Below are positions 1,825-4,821 of a DNA stretch of 27,013 nt, one piece after another. Position 1 is the stretch's first letter. Each line of letters starts with the position of its first letter. Location: positions 1 to 27,013 of the forward strand of contig CAMDJS010000019.1 of the NCBI GenBank assembly GCA_945900685.1, in the 5' to 3' direction. Below the pieces are notes generated by a model. The model had not been told where the DNA came from and searched no databases. It was given only the letters and a program-made list of their open reading frames with translations. The stretch comes from Bordetella parapertussis. GTDB lineage: Bacteria; Pseudomonadota; Gammaproteobacteria; Burkholderiales; Burkholderiaceae_C. Position numbers and translations under genes: made by a program.

Positions 1825-4821
1825 ATGAACGCAAGCGCTTCCTCACTGCCCAAACTGTCGGTGGCCGACATACGCAAAACCTTTTTGGATTTTTTCGCCG
1901 CCAAAGGGCATACCGTGGTGGCCTCCAGTCCGCTGGTGCCGGGCAACGACCCGACGCTGATGTTCACCAACTCGGGCATGGTGCAGTTCAAAGACGTGTT
2001 TTTGGGCGAGGATAAGCGCCCCTATGTGCGCGCAGCCTCGGTACAAGCCTGTTTGCGCGCTGGCGGCAAACACAATGACTTGGAAAACGTGGGCTATACC
2101 GCGCGGCATCACACATTTTTCGAGATGCTGGGCAACTGGAGTTTTGGCGATTACTTCAAACGCGACAGTTTGAAATGGGGCTGGGAATTGTTGACGCAGG
2201 TGTACAAGTTGCCGCCCGAGCGCCTGCTGGTGACTGTGTATATCGATGACGACGAGGCTTACGACATTTGGAACAAAGAAATCGGCCTGCCTGCCGACCG
2301 CATCGTGCGCATTGGCGACAACAAGGGCAAAAAATACGCCTCAGATAATTTTTGGATGATGGCCGACACCGGCCCTTGCGGTCCTTGCTCCGAGATTTTT
2401 TACGACCACGGTGCGCACATTCCCGGCGGCCCGCCCGGCAGCCCGGACGAAGACGGCGACCGGTTCATTGAAATCTGGAACCATGTGTTCATGCAGTTCG
2501 ATATGCAGCCTGACGGCAGTTTGAACAATCTGCCCGCGCCTTGCGTAGACACCGGCATGGGCTTGGAGCGTTTGGCCGCCATCTTGCAACACGTGCACAG
2601 CAATTACGAAATCGATATTTTTGACGCGCTGATCAAAGCCGCTGCGCGTGAAACCGGTTGCGCTGATTTGCACAACAACTCGCTGCGCGTCATCGCCGAC
2701 CACATTCGGGCAACCGCGTTTTTGGTCAGCGACGGCGTGATTCCCGGCAGCGAAGGACGCGGTTATGTGCAGCGGCGCATCATCCGCCGCGCTATTCGTC
2801 ATGGGTACAAGCTGGGGCAGAAGAAACCTTTTTTCCACAAACTGGTTGCCGACTTGGTGGCTCTCATGGGCGAGGCGTATCCAAATTTGGCGGCGCAGGC
2901 TGAACGCATTACTGCGGTGTTGAAGACCGAGGAAGAGCGGTTTTATGAGACGCTGGAAACGGGAATGCAGATCTTGGAACGTAGCCTGACTGATGAGGGA
3001 GTGGTCTTGTCCTACTATAAAGATAAGCTGAATGCTCAACGAATAGCTACGGAACGACGCGGTTCTGTTCTTGGCCAAGATAAGTCATACCGTTTTGATG
3101 CAGTTATAGAGTTGAGTGAGTGGTCAGAAGTTGTCGTTGAGTTTATGAGACCCAAATTGGAACTGGGGGATGCATTTCTTGCAGATAAGGCATCACGTTT
3201 CGCGGAAAACATTCGTCGTTCTCAGAGCGATAAAGCATTATTCGTTTTTTTTGGATATGAATCTACTAACCGGCGTGAAGCGATAGTTGCCGGTTTAGGC
3301 GATTTAGCATCTCAAACTGAGATTGCATTTTTTGATTCAGCGCGAATAGAGTCTGTGCGGGCGCTTGATGGAGGCGTAGCTTTTTCCTTGCACGATACAT
3401 ATGGGTTTCCTCTAGATTTGACTTGTGATGTATGCCGTGAACGTGGCGTTAGGGTTGACATGGACGGTTTCCACACCGCCATGGAAAAACAAAAATCCCA
3501 AGCCCGCGCCGCCGGTAAATTCAAAATGGACAGGGCGTTGGAATACAGCGGTGTCGGCAATGAATTTGTCGGATATGAACACTTAAGCGCCGAAGCCAAG
3601 GTCACGGCTTTGTATGTGGACGGCGTGGCCGTACAGCAAATGCAAGCCGGTCAAACAGGTGTGGTGGTGCTGGACCACACGCCGTTTTACGCCGAGAGCG
3701 GCGGCCAGGTCGGCGACCAGGGCAGCATCAGCGGCGGCACTGCGTTGTTCGAAGTGGAAGACACGCTCAAAATCAAAGCCGATGTATTCGGTCACCACGG
3801 CCAATTAGCCAAGGGCAGTTTAAAAGTTGGCGACAGCGTCGAAGCGCGGGTGGACACCGCGCTGCGCGCTGCCACGGTGCGCAATCACTCGGCCACGCAT
3901 TTGATGCACAAAGCTTTGCGCGAAGTGCTGGGCTCGCACGTACAGCAAAAAGGCAGTCTGGTGAATGACGAGCGCACCCGCTTCGACTTCGCCCACACCG
4001 GCCCGATCAGCGACGAGCAGATCCGTGAGATTGAATACAAAGTGAACGCCGAAATTTTGGCTAACGCCGATACGCAAGCGCGTGTCATGGAGATTGAAGC
4101 TGCGCAAAAAACCGGCGCCATGATGTTGTTCGGCGAGAAATACGGCGACACGGTGCGCGTGCTCGACATCGGCAGCAGCCGCGAGTTGTGCGGTGGCACG
4201 CATGTGCACAGCACCGGCGATATTGGTTTATTCAAAGTGGTGGCGCAAAGCGGTGTGGCCGCAGGCGTGCGACGCATTGAAGCCGTGACCGGCGAACACG
4301 CGCTGTCCTATGTGCAAACGCTGGAAGACACAGTCAACCAAGCCTGTGCGGCGCTCAAAGCCACGCCCGCCGAACTCAATCAACGGCTGGCTCAGTTGCT
4401 GGAGCAAATGCGCGGCCTGGAAAAAGACATGGGCGCGTTGAAAGGCAAATTGGCTTCATCCCAAGGCGACGATTTGCTGGCCCAAGCCATCGATGTCAAA
4501 GGCGTGAAACTGCTGGCAGCGCTGCTGCCCGGCGCAGATGCCAAAGCCTTGCGCGACACCTTGGATCAATTGAAAAACAAACTCAAAACCGCAGTGGTGG
4601 TACTGGCCAGCGTGGACGGTGACAAGGTGCAACTCGCCGCCGGTGTGACTGCCGACACGTTGAACAAAGTCAAGGCCGGTGAGTTGGTGAATTTTGTTGC
4701 CCAGCAAGTCGGCGGCAAGGGCGGCGGCAAGCCCGACATGGCCATGGCCGGTGGCACCCAACCCGCTGGTTTGGAAAAGGCCTTGGCCAGCGTGCAAGCT
4801 TGGGTCGTTGAGCGTTTGTAA
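1825..4821 (+). CDS. alaS: Alanyl-tRNA synthetase with a ~124-residue internal insertion
   Basis: Class II synthetase that charges tRNA-Ala and edits Ser/Gly mischarges. The ATG at 1825 matches the family N-terminus (SVADIRKTFLDFFAAKGH), so the open frame upstream is not used. The protein is 998 residues against about 874 in E. coli and relatives. The aminoacylation domain is intact: FTNSGMVQFK, RHHTFFEMLGNWSFGDYFK and GMGLERLAA. Editing-domain zinc ligands are intact at H688-x3-H692 (HSATH) and C789-x3-H793 (CGGTH), and the C-Ala tail follows. The extra length is one in-frame block, about residues 389-512, replacing the short loop between GMQILERSL and LDGGVAFSLHDTYGFPLDL. The DNA here is AT-richer, and the shift continues through conserved sequence to about 3455. 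This suggests recombination with a donor alaS that already carried the insert. No stop or frameshift is present, so the gene is probably functional. Confidence 0.96.
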   Translation: MNASASSLPKLSVADIRKTFLDFFAAKGHTVVASSPLVPGNDPTLMFTNSGMVQFKDVFLGEDKRPYVRAASVQACLRAGGKHNDLENVGYTARHHTFFEMLGNWSFGDYFKRDSLKWGWELLTQVYKLPPERLLVTVYIDDDEAYDIWNKEIGLPADRIVRIGDNKGKKYASDNFWMMADTGPCGPCSEIFYDHGAHIPGGPPGSPDEDGDRFIEIWNHVFMQFDMQPDGSLNNLPAPCVDTGMGLERLAAILQHVHSNYEIDIFDALIKAAARETGCADLHNNSLRVIADHIRATAFLVSDGVIPGSEGRGYVQRRIIRRAIRHGYKLGQKKPFFHKLVADLVALMGEAYPNLAAQAERITAVLKTEEERFYETLETGMQILERSLTDEGVVLSYYKDKLNAQRIATERRGSVLGQDKSYRFDAVIELSEWSEVVVEFMRPKLELGDAFLADKASRFAENIRRSQSDKALFVFFGYESTNRREAIVAGLGDLASQTEIAFFDSARIESVRALDGGVAFSLHDTYGFPLDLTCDVCRERGVRVDMDGFHTAMEKQKSQARAAGKFKMDRALEYSGVGNEFVGYEHLSAEAKVTALYVDGVAVQQMQAGQTGVVVLDHTPFYAESGGQVGDQGSISGGTALFEVEDTLKIKADVFGHHGQLAKGSLKVGDSVEARVDTALRAATVRNHSATHLMHKALREVLGSHVQQKGSLVNDERTRFDFAHTGPISDEQIREIEYKVNAEILANADTQARVMEIEAAQKTGAMMLFGEKYGDTVRVLDIGSSRELCGGTHVHSTGDIGLFKVVAQSGVAAGVRRIEAVTGEHALSYVQTLEDTVNQACAALKATPAELNQRLAQLLEQMRGLEKDMGALKGKLASSQGDDLLAQAIDVKGVKLLAALLPGADAKALRDTLDQLKNKLKTAVVVLASVDGDKVQLAAGVTADTLNKVKAGELVNFVAQQVGGKGGGKPDMAMAGGTQPAGLEKALASVQAWVVERL
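2989..3360 (+). other. In-frame domain-sized insertion inside alaS
   Basis: This block encodes alaS residues ~389-512, which have no counterpart in ordinary bacterial AlaS. Two 60-base blocks in it (3061-3120 and 3241-3300) are 42-43% GC by hand count, against 62% at 2641-2700. The peptide is mixed, not low-complexity: YRFDAVIEL, then SEVVVEFMRPK, a helical stretch KASRFAENIRRSQS, then ALFVFFGYES and TEIAFFDS. The alternation of hydrophobic strands and helices suggests a folded alpha/beta domain. The D...VVVEFM pattern faintly recalls a degenerate PD-(D/E)XK core, but this is speculation. It lacks intein features: no terminal Cys/Ser splice residue and no C-terminal HN. Confidence 0.85.

Follow-up and report, generated by a model that had tools for sequence, protein, structure and literature searches.

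A predicted nuclease-like domain, probably acquired by recombination, in an insertion-prone loop of a bacterial alanyl-tRNA synthetase

Introduction

The element described here is a domain-sized insert in the alanyl-tRNA synthetase (AlaS, or AlaRS) encoded by a 27,013-nucleotide stretch of Bordetella parapertussis DNA (assembly GCA_945900685.1, contig CAMDJS010000019.1, positions 1 to 27,013; hereafter the window, meaning this whole stretch), and its closest known counterparts are proteins sharing its predicted fold and AlaS proteins carrying inserts in the same loop. Regarding the fold, XisH (2okf, 2inb) and AF1548 (1y88) are single-domain PD-(D/E)XK proteins about 10% identical to the window insert which, unlike them, lacks the Lys of the E-x-K motif and lies inside an essential enzyme. 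The C-terminal nuclease-like domain of RecC is reported to be a PD-(D/E)XK domain devoid of catalytic features within a larger enzyme, likewise reused without catalysis but fixed and with a described role (PMC1185551), whereas the window insert is patchy, fast-changing and exchanged.

Among AlaS proteins, those of Nitrosospira sp. Nsp14, Nitrosospira sp. NpAV and Nitrosospira lacus resemble the window protein in having an AT-rich insert of similar length in the same loop, with an FDG motif and, in the alignment, the same predicted order of elements; they differ in that their inserts are only about 15-20% identical to that of the window and are not recently shared. These proteins are annotated simply as alanine--tRNA ligase, with no description of their insert found in the literature searched. 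The Neisseria-type AlaS insert (loci L004 and L167) also occupies this loop, with 90-92 extra residues, but is not linked by profile to the PD-(D/E)XK inserts. More generally, the literature searched, mostly listings along with passages of PMC9425974 and PMC10036535, yielded no account of any domain at this position of AlaS.

Results

The AlaS of the window is complete, with one additional block. Over its full length it scores 988.6 bits against the TIGR00344 equivalog model (cut-off 457), Pfam matches likewise mark it as a full AlaS, and the motifs HSATHLMH (starting at residue 688) and CGGTH (starting at residue 789), which we take to have a zinc-binding role, are intact. In a phmmer comparison with E. 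coli AlaS (3hxu), residues 12-388 and 513-565 are aligned and the block between them is not, its edges being uncertain by a few codons (motif marks give residues 387-514). The spacing from GRGYV to DTYGFP is 213 residues vs exactly 94 in 86 of the 115 loci in which it was measurable (136 tried; a few loci repeat one another), hence a net excess of 119 residues in one block. The preliminary description of this DNA, made from its letters alone, had recognized an over-long AlaS with a single in-frame block at about residues 389-512 and with AlaS motifs and zinc ligands preserved, and both observations are confirmed. Upstream of the alaS ATG, an in-frame GTG is present at 1723.

Structure prediction points to a nuclease-like fold for this block. 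Indeed, the AlphaFold2 (AF2) model built on alignment A3, which gathers the window insert and 13 relatives, 12 of them from the family of Nitrosospira, is of the PD-(D/E)XK, restriction-endonuclease-like type (predicted local distance difference test, pLDDT, 84.7) and contains the core order alpha-beta-beta-beta-alpha-beta of this fold, supporting the earlier view that the block is no linker but folds as an alpha/beta domain. A single-sequence model of the insert reaches a pLDDT of 61.5 with mixed fold matches. The F-D motif of the second of the three strands shares one column in 12 of the 14 insert members, the exceptions being L118, with F-N, and L196, in which neither residue is present. 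On the third strand, where an active nuclease would carry (D/E)-x-K, the window has E-F-M, and an acidic residue and a Lys occur together at the aligned places in none of the 14 members. From model and alignment, the insert is thus probably no nuclease but a non-catalytic, nuclease-like domain without a complete catalytic triad.

Foreign DNA is limited to the insert and a short piece of alaS behind it (Table 1), the remaining alaS and the neighbour genes being native. The tract was placed from GC at third codon positions (GC3), identity, third-position and synonymous data together with the sequence itself. The insert has a GC of 0.44 vs 0.58 in the AlaS core, and a GC3 of 0.33 vs 0.70; along the gene, GC3 is 0.20-0.40 in the seven 20-codon blocks that make up residues 401-540, whereas all 43 remaining blocks reach 0.50-0.90. 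The drop in GC noted previously is therefore real, although the 62% given for its surroundings is a little high. In a codon alignment of the window with insert-free relatives (12 readable of 14 tried), nucleotide identity to L005, L006 and L097 is 39-73% over residues 501-540, 70-78% over residues 541-560 and 87-98% over residues 561-580. At third positions, the window differs from each of these three loci by 64% in the first 25 codons past the insert and by 24-40% in the second 25, vs 8-32% in the eight blocks of 25 codons that precede it, the control pairs L006/L097 and L005/L006 differing by 24% and 28% in the first block past the insert. The 50 codons after the insert are, moreover, synonymously more divergent than the core in the comparisons with L006 (p = 1.6e-6), L005 (p = 8.9e-5) and L097 (p = 0.0015). 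As proposed earlier, the AT-rich tract extends beyond the insert into AlaS, with a right edge at about 3455-3490 (3455 in the preliminary description), and the co-arrival of flanking alaS sequence supports its acquisition by homologous recombination from an insert-bearing alaS.

The immediate relatives of the window protein are devoid of the insert. In a tree calculated with the insert excluded (FastTree, 135 rows), the window AlaS groups with L005, L006, L096 and L097, all insert-free (top identity 95%), in a starred five-row group; in a repeat tree of 151 rows, the smallest starred set holding the window has eight rows, seven of them insert-free. The 135-row tree and the composition set are without 17 loci (L106 and 16 insert-free ones), and the repeat, with its looser length filter, left the outcome unchanged. 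Of the 61 genomes sampled from the genus, 46 have both flanks, which are never more than 37 nt apart (coordinates judged by eye), and the other 15 gave no match. The insert is thus, as anticipated, not general in its group.

Distant relatives of the insert were found at the same site of other AlaS proteins, the AlaS relatives compared being the best 80 of at least 586. A protein database search with the insert returned only the window's own cluster, without any stand-alone homologue, and no stand-alone relative was found in IMG/VR, in the PDB by sequence or in 18 genomes. A genome search with the site and its flanks gave, among the matches listed, a contiguous match in one genome (G506). In its family (125 genomes), 115 genomes match the AlaS tail at E <= 1e-8, and 12 of these also match the insert model over its whole length. 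The three Nitrosospira species and strains named above are among these carriers, which suggests that the family is Nitrosomonadaceae. The order-level sample (399 genomes) yielded only G506 again and one Neisseria-type insert, the class-level sample (274 genomes) one more candidate, L196, and the phylum-level sample (299 genomes) no further insert relative; since the strict cut-offs used (3e-11 or 1e-11) miss divergent inserts, these counts are lower bounds. By profile similarity at the same site, the window insert probably belongs with the Nitrosospira-family group: against a 12-member model with the window outside the training set, only 2 of 1,896 reported shuffles score as well as the window insert. 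When the other groups were left out one at a time, no shuffle did as well for five of them, but 19 of 1,746 did so in the case of L117 and its group and 7 of 1,777 in that of L125, so that the insert family sits at the detection limit. Of eight other inserts compared with the profile, L002 came nearest (13 of 1,926 shuffles as good).

Several other matches were discarded. A match of the insert to a protein of about 240 residues in sister genomes is due to chance, the protein looking by eye like the GTPase EngB. Weak matches were also set aside for PHROG 17697 (E 0.029), plasmid and phage sequences in tblastn (E 6-10) and 420-residue proteins among the 18 genomes (E 0.003-0.09), as well as those of insert relatives to Pfam WH_GDS1 and Tudor_Coilin.

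This loop is the single site of large inserts among the sampled AlaS. Inserts of at least 30 residues are found there in 22 of 135 aligned rows (at least 60 residues in 20) and nowhere else inside the protein, the largest away from the loop having 16 and 15 residues, in two rows (884 backbone positions). The set is not random, some loci having been chosen for long frames, and in one fetched batch 12 of 20 loci had normal or near-normal spacing (92-98); large inserts at other places in AlaS would have been seen. The loop inserts are of several unlike types and many lengths. In the 151-row set, all 22 large inserts have a lower GC than their gene (mean difference 0.12), as had 21 of 21 in an earlier composition set (Wilcoxon p = 6e-5; related rows are not independent).

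Three further cases were noted. L054, a metagenome-assembled genome (MAG) of Comamonadaceae type, has about 28 extra residues forming a GC-rich (0.71), repeat-like element, presumably an RPEPVEG-type repeat, which is the only insert richer in GC than its gene among those measured alongside spacing. In L001, a Methylotenera MAG whose AlaS has an 81-residue insert, Gly replaces the Asp of DTYGFP (Asp in 134 of 135 rows). The cores of L170 and L171 are 96-98% identical, one protein being insert-free and the other carrying an unlike 85-residue insert, a second young gain at the loop.

Exchange around the insert was assessed in 18 pairs of loci (p values are uncorrected, and synonymous values are saturated between very unlike inserts). 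In L117/L119, whose inserts are 21% identical, the third-position difference is 4-32% across the core vs 60-76% in the 50 codons on each side of the insert, and in L118/L123 the cores are 95-96% and the inserts 20% identical. Between L121 and L122 (NpAV and N. lacus), the synonymous differences of insert and tail reach 0.73 and 0.83, respectively, vs 0.37-0.39 for the core (p = 1e-8 and 6e-7), and L122/L125 likewise have an excess in insert and tail (p = 3.5e-5 and 5e-8). Other inserts are too similar, namely those of L117/L118 (0.14 vs 0.37-0.41, p = 1.2e-6) and L120/L121 (0.41 vs 0.60-0.70, p = 5e-5). No effect was found in L107/L108, L108/L109, L120/L122 or the insert-free pairs L006/L097 and L005/L006. 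Such anomalies indicate that cassette alleles are swapped by recombination, the window being one case. In four unsaturated close pairs of eight, the insert has a ratio of nonsynonymous to synonymous divergence (dN/dS) of 0.24-0.53, severalfold higher than in the N-terminal core though below 1.

Only 10-12 residues separate the end of the insert from D524, whose E. coli counterpart, D400, is reported as one of two AlaRS residues reading G3:U70, the other being N303 (PMC10036535). The D400 position is kept in 134 of 135 AlaS rows. Ser stands at the N303 place (the residue before EGRGYV) in 17 of the 135 rows, mostly insert-free but including the window; a link between the insert and loss of N303 was rejected, as the 18 rows with Ser or Lys there are nearly all insert-free. 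The window insert is acidic (net charge -3, isoelectric point 5.1), as are 10 of 14 inserts by net charge, which argues mildly against general tRNA binding. No partner for the insert was found.

Regarding the neighbourhood, alaS is flanked by a pseudouridine synthase gene and by what we take to be an aldehyde-dehydrogenase-like gene, and 5 of 10 loci tested (L005, L006, L007, L008 and L012) have the same close flanking genes. Directly upstream, Pfam matches identify a toxin-antitoxin pair of YoeB and Phd/YefM type (1095-1615, + strand), found also upstream of alaS in L005 and L007 and not at the other 8 of the 10 loci. A PUCC-family transporter gene (508 bits) occupies positions 8245-9609 (+ strand); such transporters are usually tied to photosynthesis gene clusters.

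Table 1. Positions of alaS, its insert and the predicted elements in the window
Feature	Position	Strand	Basis and remarks
alaS, alanyl-tRNA synthetase, insert included	1825..4821	+	ATG at 1825, stop ending at 4821, 998 aa
Foreign tract: insert and about 35 codons of AT-rich AlaS after it	2975..3470	+	codon and third-position comparison; edges approximate
Insert, block unaligned to E. coli AlaS (residues 389-512)	2989..3360	+	phmmer
Predicted domain core	2992..3333	+	AF2 on A3; model residue + 368 = AlaS residue
Predicted core helices, residues 390-401, 449-466, 481-497	within 2992..3333	+	AF2
Predicted core strands, residues 406-414, 421-431, 434-441, 470-476, 498-503	within 2992..3333	+	AF2
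D425 codon, Asp of the F-D motif, second of three strands	3097..3099	+	AF2 model and alignment
E439-F440-M441, E-x-K position with Met for Lys	3139..3147	+	alignment
D524 codon, aligned to E. coli D400	3394..3396	+	phmmer alignment; numbering offset of 1 inferred

Discussion

Taken as a statement on identity and origin, the insert is probably a PD-(D/E)XK-like domain without the catalytic triad, acquired by recombination from an insert-bearing alaS. A domain of about 120 residues sits in frame in the one large-insert loop of AlaS, some 500 bp of a native Comamonadaceae alaS having probably been replaced, by homologous recombination, with the tract of an AT-richer, insert-bearing allele, and the insert cassette is probably swapped likewise in other lineages. 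With respect to the preliminary description, the folded domain, its recombinational arrival and its restricted presence hold, while the nuclease fold, the Nitrosospira-family relatives, the hotspot and the repeated swapping had not been seen and are new.

Several points weigh against this reading. The sequence link between the window insert and its relatives is weak: a five-member model (L105-L109) is unconvincing for the window insert (15 of 915 shuffles as good), and the better score (13.4 bits, 1 of 18,765 shuffles as good), although obtained after taking the window out of A3, comes from an alignment built with the window included. No Foldseek match reached E <= 0.001, and other folds also figure among those listed. 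Regarding the tract, the insert-free control pair L005/L097 likewise differs by as much as 44% at third positions in the first 25 codons after the insert site, and the synonymous excess of the 50-codon tail is not significant between the window and L007 (p = 0.13). No donor was found, any compared AlaS having at most 69% nucleotide identity over the first 29 codons after the insert, where Nitrosospira-type and Comamonadaceae rows rank alike. As for function, no defence-family match for the insert was obtained, and positive selection is not indicated, dN/dS being below 1.

What the domain does can be proposed only tentatively. A non-catalytic module could alter the AlaRS surface near the acceptor-stem site, purifying selection keeping it within a lineage and exchange renewing it between lineages, most simply under pressure from a diversifying antagonist, phage or competitor, that would act on AlaRS or tRNA-Ala. 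Nearly as likely is a tolerated passenger, the loop accepting any foldable in-frame insert that then spreads by ordinary alaS recombination and is conserved only so far as folding and an unharmed essential enzyme require. The unlike inserts of many lengths at this loop, one of them repeat-derived (L054), and the patchy presence within a single family speak for such a passenger, while the AT-richness of all 22 large inserts and the concentration of exchange at the loop are not predicted by chance insertion alone; a dN/dS well below 1 also counts against it, though folding alone could yield that value.

Less probable is a relic of homing, in which an ancestral PD-(D/E)XK enzyme of the loop would have cleaved alaS copies lacking the insert and been transferred into them together with its flanks, the sampled copies having since decayed. 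PD-(D/E)XK homing enzymes exist, and the nuclease fold, the co-exchanged flanks, the patchy distribution and the AT-richness would all fit. However, the missing triad, with acidic residue and Lys combined at E-x-K in no sampled member, makes present homing-endonuclease activity unlikely, homing does not need one insert type to replace another (L117/L119, L118/L123), and unlike inserts are common to this site, a variable loop. Slightly less likely again is an accessory domain that would adjust aminoacylation or editing by binding tRNA or by regulation: proximity to the G3:U70-reading Asp and purifying selection would suit this role, but the prevailing negative charge speaks against it, and the extreme divergence between close relatives is unlike a conserved tRNA contact. 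Finally, an artefact, an intein or an intron, i.e., a block absent from the mature enzyme, is very improbable, no point having been found in its support: the protein cluster (P0001, four member sequences) comes from two contigs, the sequence is open and in frame, same-site relatives exist elsewhere, including a homologous insert in a 3.26-Mb contig of N. lacus, the insert has no Pfam match at E <= 10 (filtering removes the majority of those above about 0.1) and there is no Rfam match at E <= 1 across window positions 1500-5000.

Returning to the antagonist-driven surface module, a wider proposal, which we consider rather doubtful, is that the loop acts as a diversifying allele cassette: it would take up a pseudo-nuclease as well as unrelated domains, these would pass between lineages together with their flanks, and selection by phages or competitors with products acting on AlaRS or tRNA-Ala would retain them. 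If true, a housekeeping gene would behave like a defence or antigen locus. The alaS of the window is a candidate example both of a nuclease fold that the translation machinery has put to new use without the triad and of alleles being swapped within an essential gene, and domain-sized, AT-rich and exchangeable inserts close to a tRNA-identity residue raise the question of what selects for differing synthetase surfaces.
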